A DNA stretch of 42,605 nucleotides from Akkermansiaceae bacterium (GTDB lineage Bacteria; Verrucomicrobiota; Verrucomicrobiia; Verrucomicrobiales; Akkermansiaceae). Location: assembly GCA_903906515.1 (NCBI GenBank), contig CAIVKO010000107.1:1-42605 (forward strand), in the 5' to 3' direction. Position 1 is the first letter of the stretch. Every line of letters begins with the position of its first letter. The notes below the pieces were generated by a model, which ran no database searches, had not been told where the DNA came from, and saw only the letters and a program-made list of their open reading frames with translations. Below are positions 2,081 to 16,744 of the stretch, piece after piece. Position numbers and translations under genes: made by a program.

Positions 2081-3301
2081 ATGGCTGCCAGGCTAATCGA
2101 TTCCAATAATCATGTTCCCGATGTCTCCCCGGATGACCATTGGGGAGATGCCGCCAATTTGGATACTTGCGGAGACGTTCCTGTCGGGATTTTACCGCCG
2201 AAACGCAAAGTCGTTGAAGCTGCGGTGGTCAAATCTGCAGATTGGAACGATGAAGGGTTGAGAATCGGATCGAGTTCTCCACAGCGGCAGGATGATCCAA
2301 CATCGGGCGATTTGGAAGTTCATGAAATCCGCGGCAACGTGTTGCGACTGCAGTCGGAATCCGCCACTATGGCCAAGTCCGAGCGACAGGTGGTATTCCA
2401 AGAACGGCCACCGAAAAGTGAATTGCTAGCCGAATGGGAGGGTAAAGAAGTCGAGTTGGGAAGCTCACAGAAAAAATCGATTCGTTGGCTGATCACGGCT
2501 GGTATCGGAGTCGTGGCGATGATAGTGACAAGCCTGTTGTTGCTGCCGATCATCAATCATTCCAATGCGGTAGTCCCGCGGCCAAGCGATCTGTTATTGA
2601 CCTTGGACAGGGGAGAAGTATCCGTCGCGGGCATCGATGCGCTCAATGAGATGGTCCCGCTGCAGTCGCAGGCGGAGCAGATTTACCGCGCTTTCGCCAG
2701 TGCCACGCTTACCGACGATTTTCTGCCATTGATACGGGATGCCAAATCCTTGGAAGCACTTATCCGTAAGACTCCCCACATCGCCAAGGTTTCGAAGGCT
2801 TGGCTGCCTTCGGAAGATTGTAATTGGAATGTCTTCGACTCGGCGGGTATTCCGTGCGGGGTTTTAGAGGGCACACTGCCAGATCAATCCTCGTTTAGTG
2901 CTTGCTTTGTGATGAAATCAAAGCGCTTGATGTTAGATTGGAAGGCTACCGTGGGCTATTGTACCGCTGCCTATGATGATTTGGTTGTAAGTCATGGAGA
3001 CGGTAGCGAAATCCGCGGTTGGATCATTCCCACGGATTACTATACCGCCATTTTCCCTGAGGCGGATTTTCAGAGTTACCAACTGCTCTCGCCCGATAAG
3101 CAAAATACGCTGTGGTGCTACGCTCGAAAGGGATCGCCGGAAAACAGGCATCTGGCCCCGCTCTTTCCGCAGAGCGCGATCATTGAAGCCCCCAACGAAC
3201 CTGCAAAAATCACTATCAGCCTCGAACACAACCGTTCTGGATCGCTTCTCAACCAATGGTCGATTGGAAAGGTGCTTCATAAGGAATGGATCAGCCCCTA
3301 A
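2081..3301 (+). CDS. Single-pass membrane protein of unknown function (paralogue of next gene)
   Basis: I do not recognise a family. The 406-residue product has a polar, acidic N-terminal segment of about 135 residues, one strongly hydrophobic membrane span around residues 137-160 (WLITAGIGVVAMIVTSLLLL) and a soluble domain of about 240 residues. The C-terminal domain seems to share its plan with the next gene: an early helical stretch, a DWK/LDW element, a Tyr-Cys pair, and a closing strand pattern (KITISLEHN... against IRIRVNVRR...). Its stop overlaps the next start as TAATG, so the two are probably co-translated. The ATG at 2081 overlaps a chance-looking TATAAT (2077-2082); if that were a real -10 box, translation would have to start further in, for example at the Met before AKSERQVVF. 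Confidence 0.7.
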   Translation: MAARLIDSNNHVPDVSPDDHWGDAANLDTCGDVPVGILPPKRKVVEAAVVKSADWNDEGLRIGSSSPQRQDDPTSGDLEVHEIRGNVLRLQSESATMAKSERQVVFQERPPKSELLAEWEGKEVELGSSQKKSIRWLITAGIGVVAMIVTSLLLLPIINHSNAVVPRPSDLLLTLDRGEVSVAGIDALNEMVPLQSQAEQIYRAFASATLTDDFLPLIRDAKSLEALIRKTPHIAKVSKAWLPSEDCNWNVFDSAGIPCGVLEGTLPDQSSFSACFVMKSKRLMLDWKATVGYCTAAYDDLVVSHGDGSEIRGWIIPTDYYTAIFPEADFQSYQLLSPDKQNTLWCYARKGSPENRHLAPLFPQSAIIEAPNEPAKITISLEHNRSGSLLNQWSIGKVLHKEWISP

Positions 3302-4422
3302 TGAATCGGACGGTGAACACTCCTGACACGTTTTGGTTTCACTGCGGACGCTGTGGATCGTTGTTCCAGTCCCAACTTGGGGATTCGGACGAGCGCCTTT
3401 GCGCCAAATGTGGATCAAAGCCGGGCCTCGGCCTGGAGTCATCCTCTATGCCGTCGGCGTTGGTTGCTGCTCTAACTGAAGACGGTAGCAATGCCATGGC
3501 CCCCAAGCGGGTCTCTAAAGCCGATATCCATTTTCTCAAAAAAGGACGCAACTTGATGCTCAAAATCATCGTCGGTTGGGTGCTGGTGCTGGTGGTTATT
3601 ATTCTGTGCGCGCGCAGATTGTGGCGGGAGGATTCGGTGCCTCAAGGTGCCGTCAATCCCCTAGAGGAAAAAAACGCTCCGGAGGTCAGCCAAGAAGACC
3701 GCTTGTTTATCGAGCGCGCGCGTCCGGCTTATTCCGTTGCATTCCACGGGTTTCTTGCGGCAAATACTCAGGAGGAGCAAAATCAGTTTGTGCTGTCACC
3801 GGCATTCACTGCCGTAAAAATGGCACGTTTTTATAATGCGAACCCTTTCGACCGGGTGGATTTTGAGGGGGTATCACTATTGCAACAACATATCCTTCAA
3901 CTTCCCGGGCTGAAGACAGTGGAAACCTTGTGGAAGACCAAAGACGGCCGGAAGATTGATGCCGTTTTCCGTGTGGAAAACGGTGATTGGAGGCTTGATT
4001 GGAATCACTATGCGCGGTACTGCGATCACCCGTGGCCGCTGTTTCTTGCGGGCAGTGGCGAACCGGAAGGGGAGTTCCGTCTGCTTGCCCGCGAACGCTT
4101 GGCTGAGGAGCGTAAAGACGCGGCGGATATCAGCATGATCCTCTATGCTCCCCGTTTTGGACACCCTAACGAGACCGGATTCCAATCACCCGAGTTCCTT
4201 GTTAAACGCAGCACTCCGGATGGCAAACTGCTTGATGCCGCCTTCAAAATTGCCAGGGAAGGCAAACAGGTTTTTAACTCTCAACTCACTAACCTCAATC
4301 CCGACGGGATGATTCGGATTCGTGTCAACGTTCGTCGCTTCGATGAGGACGGAGCACGCAAATTCGAAATTACCCGGGTGATCGCCGGGCACTGGTACGA
4401 AATCGACGATCCGGGCCTTTGA
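3301..4422 (+). CDS. Zinc-ribbon membrane protein of unknown function
   Basis: About 373 residues. The N terminus holds a zinc-ribbon-like pair of CxxC knuckles (CGRC ... CAKC, 18 residues between them), as in proteins that begin with a short zinc finger before a membrane span. One hydrophobic segment follows (IIVGWVLVLVVIILCARRLW), then a soluble domain of about 260 residues resembling that of the preceding gene. I chose the ATG at 3301 because it overlaps the upstream stop (TAATG), which suggests coupling; an ATG at 3286 is the alternative and adds MDQPL. The zinc ribbon is cytoplasmic if the following domain is exported. Function unknown; the pair may form one membrane complex (inference). 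Confidence 0.72.
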   Translation: MNRTVNTPDTFWFHCGRCGSLFQSQLGDSDERLCAKCGSKPGLGLESSSMPSALVAALTEDGSNAMAPKRVSKADIHFLKKGRNLMLKIIVGWVLVLVVIILCARRLWREDSVPQGAVNPLEEKNAPEVSQEDRLFIERARPAYSVAFHGFLAANTQEEQNQFVLSPAFTAVKMARFYNANPFDRVDFEGVSLLQQHILQLPGLKTVETLWKTKDGRKIDAVFRVENGDWRLDWNHYARYCDHPWPLFLAGSGEPEGEFRLLARERLAEERKDAADISMILYAPRFGHPNETGFQSPEFLVKRSTPDGKLLDAAFKIAREGKQVFNSQLTNLNPDGMIRIRVNVRRFDEDGARKFEITRVIAGHWYEIDDPGL

Positions 4423-6426: not shown

Positions 6427-6879
6427 GTGAACACCCTCAATCAACGTCACAAAGGCAATCATGCCTATAAGGTCGATCCTAAATACAGGATCTCAATCCT
6501 GACGTCATGGCGTCCGGAGCCCGGCGGCATTCTGAATTTGCAGCTTTCTTCGGATAGAGACCTACCGTTTATCAAGGTGCTCAACGAGGAAGCTTACAGT
6601 GAGTTGGTGGAGCGGGTTAAAACCAGCGACAAACCGCCTCGGGTGCAAAGCGAGTTGCTCAGGCAACTGGCCATGCGCTGCCGTGAGGTGACACTCAACG
6701 ACCAAGGCAAGCTGTTGATTCCTAAGGATATGAGTGAGAAAGCCGGAATTGCACCGGAAAGCACCGTGATTTTGGCGGGTTGCGGCATTCATTTTGAAGT
6801 TTGGTCGAAGGAAAACTTCGACGAGTTCATGAAAATCACCGGTAGCGAGCAGCAGGCCGACGATCTCGGGATTTTCTAA
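6427..6879 (+). CDS. mraZ: Transcriptional regulator MraZ
   Basis: MraZ binds DNA near the front of the division/cell-wall cluster and controls it in other bacteria. The 150-residue product fits the family: two SpoVT/AbrB-like swapped-hairpin halves, an N-terminal one with YKVDPKYRISIL and a second with REVTLNDQGKLLIPKDMSEKAGI, which corresponds to the conserved D-x-x-GR-I-LIP block of MraZ. It starts with GTG at 6427, seven bases after an AGGAA. It is the first gene of the cluster and lies directly upstream of rsmH, as in most bacteria. The usual R of GR is K here (QGKLLIP). Confidence 0.92.
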   Translation: MNTLNQRHKGNHAYKVDPKYRISILTSWRPEPGGILNLQLSSDRDLPFIKVLNEEAYSELVERVKTSDKPPRVQSELLRQLAMRCREVTLNDQGKLLIPKDMSEKAGIAPESTVILAGCGIHFEVWSKENFDEFMKITGSEQQADDLGIF

Positions 6880-6885
6880 ATCATT

Positions 6886-6925
6886 CACCCAAGTACACCC
6901 AACAGCAGCAATGTTGTTCACCCAA
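6886..6925 (-). promoter_or_regulatory. TGGGT direct repeats resembling MraZ boxes
   Basis: CACCCAA occurs at 6886-6892, 6896-6902 and 6919-6925. Read on the minus strand the first two give TGGGT-N5-TGGGT, a 10-base period. MraZ is known to bind short TGGG-type direct repeats separated by about five bases. The position, just after the mraZ stop and before rsmH rather than upstream of mraZ, is unusual. MraZ binding here is inference. Confidence 0.4.
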
Positions 6926-7020
6926 CCAACTCCGGCATTTGAAGCGATCCGCCCATCGGCGGCCTCGGCAAGTGTTGCCCGGACGTCAGAGTTGGGAAAA
7001 TTTTCATACGGATGCGCGGA

Positions 7021-7038
7021 TCTCCTCGGGACAGGAGG
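7021..7038 (+). ncRNA. Hairpin A1, CGGGAC loop
   Basis: CTCCT (7022-7026) pairs with AGGAG (7033-7037), plus a T-G pair outside, closing the loop CGGGAC at 7027-7032. First of three hairpins with the same loop and flanking bases (CTCGGGACAG) spaced by exactly 105 bases. Confidence 0.6.
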
Positions 7039-7055
7039 CCTTGCATCAGATCAAA

Positions 7056-7099
7056 CGGACGTCCGAACCGCTCCTGGCTGGTTGTCGGTGCGGCGTCCG
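7056..7099 (+). ncRNA. Hairpin B1 with conserved 15-base loop
   Basis: CGGACG (7056-7061), bulged T, CCGAACCG (7063-7070) pair with CGGTGCGG (7086-7093) and CGTCCG (7094-7099): 13 pairs with one A-G mismatch. The loop 7071-7085 is CTCCTGGCTGGTTGT, identical in all three copies. Confidence 0.78.
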
Positions 7100-7121
7100 G
7101 TGGCTTTTATGGCTGGGCAAT

Positions 7122-7146
7122 TGAAGTCTCTCGGGACAGAGCTTCA
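7122..7146 (+). ncRNA. Hairpin A2, CGGGAC loop
   Basis: TGAAG (7122-7126), bulged T, CTCT (7128-7131) pair with AGAG (7138-7141) and CTTCA (7142-7146), nine pairs closing CGGGAC at 7132-7137. The outer stem has changed on both sides relative to copy 1. Confidence 0.65.
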
Positions 7147-7160
7147 CTTGTCATTTCAAT

Positions 7161-7204
7161 CGATGGTCCGCGCGGCTCCTGGCTGGTTGTCCGCGCGGCC
7201 ATCG
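7161..7204 (+). ncRNA. Hairpin B2 with conserved 15-base loop
   Basis: CGATGG (7161-7166), bulged T (7167), CCGCGCGG (7168-7175) pair perfectly with CCGCGCGG (7191-7198) and CCATCG (7199-7204): 14 pairs without mismatch around the invariant loop 7176-7190. The 6 bp + bulged T + 8 bp layout is the same as in B1 although most stem bases differ. Confidence 0.82.
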
Positions 7205-7227
7205 CAATTTTTTTCCATGATTCGGAA

Positions 7228-7251
7228 GGCCGCGCTCGGGACAGCACTGCC
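7228..7251 (+). ncRNA. Hairpin A3, CGGGAC loop
   Basis: GCT (7234-7236) pairs with AGC (7243-7245) around CGGGAC at 7237-7242, and GGC (7228-7230) can pair with GCC (7249-7251) across mismatches. The weakest of the three A stems. Confidence 0.45.
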
Positions 7252-7267
7252 GACTGCCAATCCTACG

Positions 7268-7309
7268 GGGTTCTGCGCCGCTCCTGGCTGGTTGTCGGAG
7301 CAGGAACCC
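7268..7309 (+). ncRNA. Hairpin B3 with conserved 15-base loop
   Basis: GGGTT (7268-7272) and CTGCGCCG (7273-7280) pair with CGGAGCAG (7296-7303), a bulged G and AACCC (7305-7309): 12 pairs with one G-A mismatch, around the same 15-base loop at 7281-7295. The in-frame TTG proposed as the rsmH start (7292) lies inside this loop. Confidence 0.78.
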
Positions 7310-8257
7310 GCTGGTTCTTTTCCTGATGCCGTAGCATACCATCTGCCGGTTTTTCCGGCGGAAATCGCCGATTGGATGGCCGCCGGTCCTGATAAATTCA
7401 TCATCGACGGGACACTTGGCGGCGGTGGTCACAGTGAATTGTTTCTCAAGGCGGGTGCCAAGGTATTGGGTATCGACCGTGATCCGGAGGCACTCGCGCA
7501 CGCGCACGCACGTTTGGCGGAATATGGAAACCGATTTTCCACATGGGAGGGAAACTTTTCCCGCCTTCAGGAAATCCCCGAAATCCAACAGGGGGGCAGG
7601 GCAGACGGCCTGCTTCTGGATCTTGGGGTTTCTTCACGCCAGCTAGATTCCGCAGTCCGTGGTTTTTCCTTCATGCGCGAGGGTCCGTTGGACATGCGCA
7701 TGGGACCGTCCAGCCCGTACACCGCTTCCCAGATCATCAATGAATGGAGTGAAGTAGATCTTGCGCGGATCATTTTCGAATTTGGTGAAGAGCCGAAGTC
7801 ACGGCGTATCGCCGCTGCCATTGTCAGACAGCGCGCCATCAAACGCTTCGACACCACTCTTGAACTCGCGGCTTTCATCGAAAGCGTGATCGGTCGTCAT
7901 GGTCGGACGCATCCTGCAACCCGCACCTTCCAAGCCGTTCGCATGGCTGTGAACGAAGAACTCGAATCTCTAGCCACCGCGCTTTCTTCCGTTTCATCCA
8001 TCCTGAAACCCGGCGGGCGTTTGTTGATCATCACGTTCCACAGTCTTGAAGACCGGATGGTCAAACGATTTTTGCGGCATCGCTCCGCACCATTCATCGA
8101 TGATCCTGGCTGGCCCGAACCCCGACCGAATCCGGATTACCAATTCCAGCTTCTTGCCCGAAAGGCCATCCTGCCAACCGCTGAAGAAACATCCCTGAAC
8201 CCGCGAGCCCGCAGTGCCAAACTGCGGGTCGCACGGCTTTTAGACCCCAAGCCATGA
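7292..8257 (+). CDS. rsmH: 16S rRNA (cytosine(1402)-N(4))-methyltransferase RsmH
   Basis: Methylates N4 of C1402 in the decoding centre of 16S rRNA using S-adenosylmethionine. The conserved protein begins near YHLPVFPAEIADW and shows the family's SAM loop IDGTLGGGGHSE, then DRDPEAL, LLLDLGVSSRQLD, GPLDMRMG, the TFQAVRMAVNEEL helix and ITFHSLEDRMVKRF. The start is uncertain. No ATG or GTG lies close before the conserved part. A TTG at 7292 gives MSEQEPAGSFPDAV and about 321 residues, normal for RsmH, but lies inside the third conserved RNA loop. In-frame ATGs at 7217 and 6911 would give about 346 and 448 residues by translating through the repeats. The stop overlaps the next start (ATGA). Confidence 0.93.
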   Translation: MSEQEPAGSFPDAVAYHLPVFPAEIADWMAAGPDKFIIDGTLGGGGHSELFLKAGAKVLGIDRDPEALAHAHARLAEYGNRFSTWEGNFSRLQEIPEIQQGGRADGLLLDLGVSSRQLDSAVRGFSFMREGPLDMRMGPSSPYTASQIINEWSEVDLARIIFEFGEEPKSRRIAAAIVRQRAIKRFDTTLELAAFIESVIGRHGRTHPATRTFQAVRMAVNEELESLATALSSVSSILKPGGRLLIITFHSLEDRMVKRFLRHRSAPFIDDPGWPEPRPNPDYQFQLLARKAILPTAEETSLNPRARSAKLRVARLLDPKP

Positions 8258-8595
8258 ACCGACGTCGCGAAGAACCCCGTAGCCATACTTCTGTTATTTT
8301 TGCGCTGATCCTTGCAGCCGCGATTATGGCAGCTGGAGGCGTGCTCCACGCCTACTATAAGAACCGCCAGATCCAGGTCAGCCGGGAAATCGACGCCATC
8401 GAAAAGAATGTCGAGCATTGCCGGTTTGACATCCGAACCACCGAGATGCGGATGGATCAACTCCTCAACCGCTTCGTCATCCGCAAGCAGCTTGAACAGA
8501 ATAAATCCAGGCTCCATCCGATCTCGCTTGCTGTTGTCGAAGACGTCGATCCAACCCCGCCCTCCCGTCGCAATGTTGCGGCTGTTTCCCCATAA
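8254..8595 (+). CDS. FtsL-like small division protein
   Basis: A 113-residue bitopic protein: short basic cytoplasmic N terminus (MNRRREEPRSH), one membrane span near residues 13-33 (VIFALILAAAIMAAGGVL), then a heptad-like helix rich in charged residues up to about residue 85. Size, topology and position between rsmH and ftsI are those of FtsL, the coiled-coil partner of FtsB and FtsQ that helps activate FtsWI. FtsL is too divergent in sequence to confirm by eye, so the assignment rests on context and architecture. Its ATG overlaps the rsmH stop, indicating coupled translation. Confidence 0.72.
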   Translation: MNRRREEPRSHTSVIFALILAAAIMAAGGVLHAYYKNRQIQVSREIDAIEKNVEHCRFDIRTTEMRMDQLLNRFVIRKQLEQNKSRLHPISLAVVEDVDPTPPSRRNVAAVSP

Positions 8596-15913: not shown

Positions 15914-16744
15914 ATGAAATCCCAAACGCTCCCAGTAAAACGTCGTCCCGTCACCAAGGGGATCCTCCGGCGCCTGAGCGCCGTCACCGGCAATCGCAAA
16001 CAACGCGTTGCCGCGTCCGCGCCCGCCATCGAAATGGAAACCGAAGAAAGCGGTTCCAAAATCTCGCGGGCATTAACCATTATTTTCCTCATTCACATCG
16101 TAGCCATCGGACTGATTTTCGTCCATCAGCGTTTCCTTGACGGACGTCCGGTGGAGAATTCTGCGACACTGACGGAAAAAGCGCCGGACAATGAACCCGC
16201 CGCCATCATCGTTGAGCCGCGCAAGGCCGACCTGCCGCGTCTTTCGTCCGGTGAAAAACCATACATCGTCAAGCCGGGTGACAACTACTCCCGCATCGCG
16301 GCCGCGACCCAGGTGGACGAGCGTGATCTCCGTTTGGTCAACCAGCATGTGGACATTGGTCCAGGGCTTATTTTGAAAATTCCGCCCAAGCGCATTGTTG
16401 CCGAAGAGCCGCCGGAAGTCGCCGCTATCCGTGCGCAGGCATCTTCCTCCCTCCGCGACCGGGATTTGGTGGACGCTGTGGATGTGAGCAATGTTCCGAA
16501 GGCACAAGCGGTGCGTCTTAATTCGCCCCGCTCCACATCCGCTCCGGGTGGAGATCATCCGGCGGCTTCCACGGGTTCTTCTGCCGCTGCATCAGGCAAA
16601 AGCTATGTCGTGCAGTCCGGCGACAGTGTTTTTCGCATCGCCAGCAAGTTCAAGGTGAGTCAGACTGCACTCATGCGCGCCAATTCAATCAGCGATCCGA
16701 AGAAGATGAAGACCGGTATGAAACTCGTCATCCCTCAAACCTGA
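15914..16744 (+). CDS. Membrane-anchored protein with two LysM domains
   Basis: A 276-residue protein with a basic cytoplasmic N terminus of about 50 residues, one membrane span near residues 52-72 (ALTIIFLIHIVAIGLIFV) and two LysM peptidoglycan-binding modules. The first is at about 116-160 (YIVKPGDNYSRIA...LKIP) and the second at about 231-275 (YVVQSGDSVFRIA...LVIP), joined by a Ser/Pro/Ala-rich linker. There is no catalytic domain, so it probably ties the inner membrane or the division machinery to peptidoglycan (inference). It sits inside the dcw cluster between murD and ftsW, 11 and 18 bases from its neighbours, a position not occupied by such a gene in model bacteria. Confidence 0.85.
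   Translation: MKSQTLPVKRRPVTKGILRRLSAVTGNRKQRVAASAPAIEMETEESGSKISRALTIIFLIHIVAIGLIFVHQRFLDGRPVENSATLTEKAPDNEPAAIIVEPRKADLPRLSSGEKPYIVKPGDNYSRIAAATQVDERDLRLVNQHVDIGPGLILKIPPKRIVAEEPPEVAAIRAQASSSLRDRDLVDAVDVSNVPKAQAVRLNSPRSTSAPGGDHPAASTGSSAAASGKSYVVQSGDSVFRIASKFKVSQTALMRANSISDPKKMKTGMKLVIPQT

Follow-up and report, generated by a model that had tools for sequence, protein, structure and literature searches.

An in-frame array of paired hairpins at the start of rsmH in two Akkermansiaceae genera, probably a new kind of RNA switch inside a gene

Why should the gene for the methyltransferase RsmH (MraW) begin with a series of hairpins whose loops are identical and evenly spaced? The question is raised by a contig of an Akkermansiaceae bacterium, of which a stretch of 42,605 nucleotides (the window) was analyzed, and in which a sequence-only reading had noted three long hairpins in what it took to be the untranslated leader of rsmH. 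The analysis described here indicates that these belong to a larger array that is read in frame with rsmH. We take it to be, in all probability, an RNA switch of a new kind lying inside a gene, and we put at roughly 0.58 the probability that it is a translated, cis-acting RNA setting the output of rsmH. Searches for conserved structured RNA commonly look at untranslated regions; here a tandem array with two conserved loops lies in a coding frame that stays open although its peptide is weakly constrained.

The array lies in the dcw cluster, which runs in the window in the order mraZ, rsmH, a small gene, the gene for a penicillin-binding protein, murE, murF, mraY, murD, the gene for a LysM protein and ftsW. 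Features of the rsmH region are collected in Table 1. MraZ was identified by matches to Pfam PF02381 (E = 1.9e-6) and NCBIfam TIGR00242 (E = 1.2e-8, below the curated cut-off of that family). The array is contained within the first 142 codons of the extended rsmH frame. No ribosome-binding site was seen by eye at the ATG that opens this frame. A hairpin around the start codon was also considered and is unsupported; exchange of its arms between genomes (43 of 53 frames used) gave 10.21 for native and 10.11 for swapped arms, with the native better in 22 of 43.

Table 1. Position of the hairpin array and neighboring features in the window
Feature	Position	Strand	Basis and remarks
mraZ	6427..6879	+	Opens the dcw cluster; 31 bases lie between its end and the ATG that begins the extended rsmH frame
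N-terminally extended RsmH open frame	6911..8257	+	448 amino acids counted from the ATG at 6911
Hairpin 0	6921..6996	+	Predicted fold; long first hairpin, then AAAATTTTC
Hairpin A1	7011..7047	+	Loop period, fold, arm swap; conserved loop 7025-7034, hexaloop CGGGAC
Hairpin B1	7056..7099	+	Loop match, fold, arm swap; loop 7071-7085, TTTT after it at 7105-7108
Hairpin A2	7118..7150	+	Loop period, fold, arm swap; loop 7130-7139; stem limits by eye
Hairpin B2	7161..7204	+	Loop match, fold, arm swap; loop 7176-7190, seven T after it at 7208-7214
Hairpin A3	7224..7258	+	Loop period, fold; loop 7235-7244; limits by eye
Hairpin B3	7265..7311	+	Loop match, fold, arm swap; loop 7281-7295
Three A + B units	7011-7109, 7116-7214, 7221-7319	+	Covariance model, E = 2.0e-16, 5.9e-18 and 5.3e-15; these units are among the 48 used to build the model
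RsmH (MraW) methyltransferase domain	7337..8236	+	PF01795 E = 5.7e-100, residues 143-442; TIGR00006 E = 1.6e-91

Three units of 105 nt lie between mraZ and the RsmH domain, each comprising a hairpin A and a hairpin B. Loop A is CTCGGGACAG, with a core hexaloop C/A-GGGAC, and loop B is CTCCTGGCTGGTTGT, with the core YGGCTGGTTG. The three identical CTCCTGGCTGGTTGT loops that had been described are exact in sequence, position and 105-base spacing, and the copies of loop A follow the same period. The three-hairpin feature is thus real, but it is larger than was thought, including the second loop CTCGGGACAG with its own covarying stem, the predicted hairpin 0 and the open frame. Stems of 13, 14 and 12 pairs had been assigned to the B hairpins; the first two numbers stand, while the third stem folds with 13. 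The common layout of B1 and B2 (6 bp, a bulged T and 8 positions) was correctly seen, with one A.G mismatch in B1. Hairpin A3 has a weaker stem with mismatches, and is absent from the minimum-energy fold of the whole region. By eye, a long hairpin comparable to hairpin 0 occurs in 12 of 19 loci shown, the window included, in a comparison for which the L097 and L022 stretches were taken from the wrong start. The 456-nt region folds better than shuffled sequences (z = -2.5, with 1 of 100 shuffles as good). The three B loops are the sole matches to CTCCTGGCTGGTTGT in the window at up to two mismatches, a number reached by none of 100 shuffles, and the same three are the only matches in the whole genome of this organism at up to one mismatch.

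The stems covary in related genomes; a lack of covariation there, which the sequence-only reading had named as evidence against its claim of a selected structure, was not observed. The model alignment contained 48 of 62 non-redundant units (from 135 used), these being the ones usable as plus-strand references. Among these 48 distinct units double changes occur in 17 of 20 pairs, and the covariation score is 0.498 compared with 0.202 in shuffles, none of 500 being as high; array copies within one locus and in related genomes are not independent. Pairing cells make up 89% in the native alignment, 72% in the shuffles and 36-51% when the partners are slid, and the covariation score is far lower in all of the slid versions. 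The structure scored was chosen on the same MAFFT alignment, which favors it, and the arms were therefore also tested without alignment, by swapping them between genomes. For the B hairpins the native arms scored 24.75 and the swapped arms 17.17, with the native better in 112 of 112. For the A hairpins the corresponding values were 14.91 and 6.98, the native arms being better in 126 of 128, and the swapped arms were barely above shuffled ones (6.98 compared with 6.64). The claim of selected, covarying stems is thus borne out both by the alignment and by the arm exchange.

The ratio of G-U pairs to A-C mismatches bears on the strand and on the nucleic acid concerned. It is 3.24 for native B hairpins against 1.42-1.65 when swapped (126 hairpins), and 1.68 for native A hairpins against 1.07-1.49 (140 hairpins). 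This excess of G-U over A-C beyond the swapped controls favors a structure in the plus-strand RNA over one in DNA or in the minus strand.

Both loops are conserved. Among 135 copies of loop A there are 113 with CTCGGGACAG, 15 with CCCGGGACGG, one with ATCGGGACAT and one with CACGGGACTG. The outer letters covary, which reduces the loop proper to the hexaloop (C/A)GGGAC; the invariance of GGGAC itself arises by construction, since A units were collected with this sequence required. Loop B is variable at its second and third letters, and YGGCTGGTTG is kept in 128 of 135 copies, in a set for which GGCTGG was required. The patterns used for collection overlook units whose loops are degenerate. One unit with degenerate loops is nevertheless present in seven of 13 loci shown, several of which were picked for that trait, and their existence suggests that intact loops are not needed in every copy. 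Pairing between loops A and B was considered by eye, giving about six pairs of which two are G-U; it is broken in several loop variants and was dropped.

The stems are strong and rich in G+C, and across 136 units the B stems are followed by a short gap and then a U-rich stretch, with T at positions 20, 21 and 22 after loop B in 108, 124 and 123 of the units respectively. The hairpins might thus be tandem intrinsic terminators or attenuators that halt transcription unless the region is translated. However, the U-rich stretch usually begins about five bases past the stem rather than directly at it as in an intrinsic terminator, and conserved loops are no feature of terminators. A terminator scan detected none of the hairpins, but as it allows loops of 3-8 only it could hardly have done so. 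We regard termination as an improbable function of the array. The linker after alternate B hairpins (in the window 7105-7118, for example) resembles TTTCATGGCTGGGCG and is similar to the loop B core GGCTGG. GGCTGG occurs no more than 40 nt upstream of 73 of 195 matches to loop A.

The array had been placed in an untranslated leader, and this is contradicted by the reading frame. Over 40 leaders (4,820 codons) the frame of rsmH contains two stop codons, while the other two frames contain 82 and 86, so that the array is in frame with rsmH. Both of the in-frame stops belong to L038, a draft genome at 2.3-fold coverage. Given that the array lies inside an open frame fused to RsmH, the word leader is misleading, and is kept below for the upstream part of the frame only. 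In the 33 loci examined the loop B matches lie at multiples of three from the RsmH match, excepting one in L038 and two that are linker matches TGGCTGGG. A further 35 matches to loop B at up to four mismatches are in another frame, and those inspected correspond to the linker TGGCTGGG. In 168 of 185 matches loop A is decoded as CTC-GGG-ACA or variants of this, and the other 17 are in another frame. Apparent breaks of frame inside the array were seen in draft genomes (L038/L089 and L094), and are either sequencing errors or real.

The peptide encoded by the array evolves differently from the enzyme. Codon changes were analyzed in 53 frames, using 33 pairs with leader lengths within three codons of each other and a core pS of 0.02-0.55, and leaving out L038, L094, L095 and L010. 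The leader had a median pN of 0.194 and a median pS of 0.25, and the RsmH core had medians of 0.09 and 0.432, so that pN/pS calculated from the medians is near 0.8 in the leader and about 0.2 in the core. Some leader pairs have a modest excess of changes at the third codon position. As judged by these comparisons the array peptide is weakly constrained, though not wholly free. By contrast, particular synonymous codons are held. The motif GWL is spelled GGC-TGG-TTG in 176 of 180 cases, yet in the core TTG accounts for 14% of leucine codons. Likewise, ACA encodes the threonine of the LGT-like motif in 155 of 175 cases, yet it provides 10% of core threonine codons. The retention of these minority synonymous codons indicates that the loops are fixed at the nucleotide level. 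Taken as a whole, the comparative data indicate that selection maintains the RNA structure, the loop sequence and the open frame, and the peptide much less.

These data also bear on the reading that the 35-residue repeats do their work in the protein, as an N-terminal part of RsmH, with the hairpins a mere by-product of the DNA sequence. The frame is open in nearly all leaders, the motifs LGT, GWLS and FMAGR recur, and some residues are invariant in an alignment of 18 sequences; the modest third-position excess in some pairs is in keeping with such a reading. It is opposed by the high pN/pS of the leader relative to the core, the reading of loop A in two frames, the fixation of minority synonymous codons and the covariation of the stems. 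Moreover, the N-terminal extension is predicted to be unfolded. In an AlphaFold model based on an alignment of 18 sequences only, residues 1-143 have pLDDT < 50 while most of the methyltransferase lies at 70-90. From the sequence comparisons a protein-level feature appears to be already largely refuted, and we consider it highly improbable. The array serves as a warning that such sequences can pass for protein repeats.

How widely is the array distributed? A genome search of the kind that had been suggested was run with the 48-unit covariance model, which is built from part of what it finds, and within the family it matched 88 of 260 genomes, all of them belonging to 2 of the 16 genera. In the genus of the window (termed g1) the unit is present in 71 of 73 genomes, and in the second (g22) in 17 of 18. 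Order-wide the model matched 78 of 386 genomes, again in two of 50 genera. The family and order searches, both run with stricter filters and few scored candidates on account of the number of genomes, gave no model match outside g1 and g22. The three genomes of these genera that the model did not match (G008, G034 and G149) also have no RsmH match at the thresholds used, so that the assemblies may lack the locus. Records of g1 are variously named Luteolibacter or Akkermansiaceae, and some metagenome-assembled genomes bear other names such as Akkermansia muciniphila or Prosthecobacter debontii. With the RsmH of the window as query 54 loci were retrieved, of which 33 have at least 70% identity (L034-L066), and in every one of these both loop types, A and B, occur once or more upstream of rsmH. 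In g22 the array is upstream of the RsmH domain in nine of nine loci read. The location at rsmH was read in these fetched loci, and presence elsewhere rests on the model search. Two genera have thus retained the array, at the gene for the first enzyme encoded in the division and cell-wall cluster.

A palindromic unit of about 105 nt that keeps the frame, and whose number differs between genomes, could also be a mobile or palindromic tandem repeat, of the Rickettsia palindromic element or REP type, which settled in frame and was amplified without any regulatory role. Rickettsia palindromic elements are units of similar length that also keep the frame, but they are dispersed over many genes. Here, for each of the six genomes available as a single contig, every significant copy belongs to one cluster. 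Outside the clusters the best E was 0.13 (13 genomes, among the best 150 candidates or fewer per genome). Presence in all but three of the 91 genomes of the two genera, those three being the ones with no RsmH match at the thresholds used, also argues against a mobile element, and we think this origin very improbable. Within many g1 genomes two types of hairpin A alternate along the array (2-1-2-1-2). By a simple pattern count that includes some false matches, there are five units in 15, three in 13 and two in 13 of 53 leaders, and draft genomes may collapse or break repeats. The alternation and the unit numbers suggest that the array expanded in steps of a whole unit or a pair of units, steps that leave the frame intact.

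Elsewhere in the order (21 rsmH loci, the DNA of 13 being folded) and in the family (19 loci, one without result) the extensions are of varied length and carry no array, one genus (g31) standing apart. Of those tested outside g1 and g22, its RsmH is the closest full-length one (56-58% identity). Two of its genomes (L161 and L162) each have two in-frame copies of an A-like hairpin with the loop AGGGAC, and no B hairpin; this is likely a simpler relative of hairpin A. The pattern of this hairpin was found once or twice in nine of ten g31 genomes, and also in 15 other genomes of the 260, several of them by chance, the reversed control giving 10. The A-like copies of g31 read F-L-(M)-A-G-R...QGTA. 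In a genome of another genus (G059 of g18, locus L171) the open rsmH frame reaches about 220 residues beyond the domain on its upstream side, and the sequence there is unrelated and by eye resembles ordinary protein.

A candidate structured RNA at this gene has been noted before, namely the mraW RNA motif (RF01746) of the Actinomycetales, which lies at mraW (rsmH) (PMC2864571, PMC5784534). The array resembles it in lying upstream of mraW/rsmH, in the window and in 33 of 33 loci of the same group. It differs in being found in the Verrucomicrobiota, in two genera of one family, and in being tandem, inside a coding frame and with two types of loop. Kinship with this motif had been proposed by the sequence-only reading and did not hold up. 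There is no Rfam match at the gathering score in the window, nor in L034, L049 or L145, and a search of bases 6880-7400 up to E = 5 returned only mir-4654 (E = 1.8, a chance match) and no mraW RNA. We found no description of the array in the open-licence literature on Luteolibacter rsmH, on structured RNAs, riboswitches or dcw of Verrucomicrobia, on rsmH autoregulation or on tandem hairpins in coding sequences.

Other systems share individual features. The hairpins bound by CsrA/RsmE present GGA in a hexaloop, with several sites per leader. The hexaloop (C/A)GGGAC likewise contains GGA and is closed by covarying pairs, but in the array the whole loop is conserved and is accompanied by a second, unrelated conserved loop. 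CsrA was considered as the reader of the array for its GGA hexaloop and was rejected, as the protein was found in none of 59 genomes by a search that was positive in three of 14 named control genomes. Like the leader peptide attenuators of amino-acid operons, the array is a translated leader with RNA hairpins; unlike them, its frame has no stop of its own and continues into RsmH. When 16S and 23S rRNA from one relative were searched at the allowed mismatches, there was no match to either full loop or to its complement. Among six-letter tests on the same rRNA, only the complement GTCCCG was slightly above chance (two in 16S, 0.38 expected). The exact string used for the RsmH target stretch did not locate it in that rRNA. 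The array as a copy or antisense of rRNA was set aside, as no likeness beyond six-letter matches was found in these two molecules.

How might the array act? The best reading of the sequence data is that it gates rsmH through a putative factor that recognizes the loops, or through the state of the ribosome. The mRNA would be translated from the conserved ATG through the array. The latter, either folded or held by a loop-reading factor, would slow or block translation and thereby set RsmH output. Coupling might extend the control to downstream cell-wall genes, and the repetition of units could provide several binding sites or a graded strength. The open frame, together with the weak constraint on its peptide, speaks for a need of ribosomes to traverse the array. 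The presence of two conserved loops of unrelated sequence argues for recognition by a factor. A hairpin that is merely translated would not need fixed loops, so that a putative recognition step must be added. The first likely input would then be a putative RNA-binding protein or an RNA that reads the loops. As partners the sequence-only reading had proposed RsmH itself, another operon product or an antisense partner, and these would be candidates; the analysis turned up no partner. The second would be the state of the ribosome, above all the methylation made by RsmH, which would amount to autogenous control. The array offers a direct handle on the control of rsmH.

The second input has a parallel in Bacillus subtilis. 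A 2026 preprint reports certain mRNAs (cmpA, isp and yukJ) whose translation is made dependent on MraW (RsmH) by stem-loops near their start, and cites earlier work in which initiation at GUG and UUG was impaired without MraW (PMC13317604). In the introduction of another paper an Escherichia coli mraW mutant is described as having altered non-AUG initiation (PMC8475190). These accounts make an autogenous loop plausible, and with the preprint a circuit based on rRNA modification becomes testable. The array is similar to the MraW-dependent elements in comprising stable stem-loops in an early coding region, provided that the ATG at 6911 or a codon close to it is where translation begins, and in the putative involvement of RsmH as the enzyme. 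It differs in being repeated, in having conserved loops and in lying in rsmH itself, while those of B. subtilis are single and in other genes.

By this analogy, feedback through the ribosome might account for the main effect without any separate binding factor, the translation of rsmH through the array depending on C1402 methylated by RsmH. It would fit with strong stem-loops filling the early coding region of rsmH, a frame that is kept over a weakly constrained peptide, and B loops in frame with rsmH, where TTG follows an in-frame GGC/GGT-TGG in 179 of 191 cases. Yet it does not by itself explain the conserved loop sequences, above all loop A, and the cases given in PMC13317604 are single stem-loops. 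In addition, UUG is replaced by UGG in B loops of L094 and L095 and in two of L097, and is absent from the final B loop in each of L093, L022 and L017. We consider feedback through the ribosome to be possible, though unlikely. The UUG of the B loop was also examined as a regular start codon and rejected; it is the nearest candidate to the RsmH domain in 21 of 53 frames by an exact test (25 on adding four near-identical cases), and in about half of the 53 another start codon is nearer than any B-loop UUG.

Returning to the gating of rsmH by a cis-acting array, one specific form of it would make the array a sensor of its own product. In this form, again drawn by analogy, only ribosomes methylated by RsmH at C1402 would start on or pass through the array efficiently, most B loops having an in-frame UUG. 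We regard this as doubtful; were it true, the cell would measure its rRNA modification and tie it to the cell-wall operon.

Some other features of the window and of these genomes were observed. The small frame at 8254-8595, between rsmH and the penicillin-binding protein gene, has no Pfam or NCBIfam match at the thresholds used; it occupies the usual position of ftsL. A LysM-domain protein is encoded at 15914-16744, flanked by murD and ftsW. Two long overlapping frames (2081-3301 and 3286-4422) with no Pfam match at 1e-4 precede a rhamnulokinase-like gene. In seven of 13 and in 12 of 22 genomes searched there is also another RsmH-like gene, divergent at 34-41% identity to the query (loci L098-L104 and L126-L134), and in G026 it is the sole gene of RsmH type found. 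Where its frame was read (L102, L128, L129, L131 and L134), the N-terminus of the divergent protein is similar to RRKRYSGKNPRRFEDKYKE.
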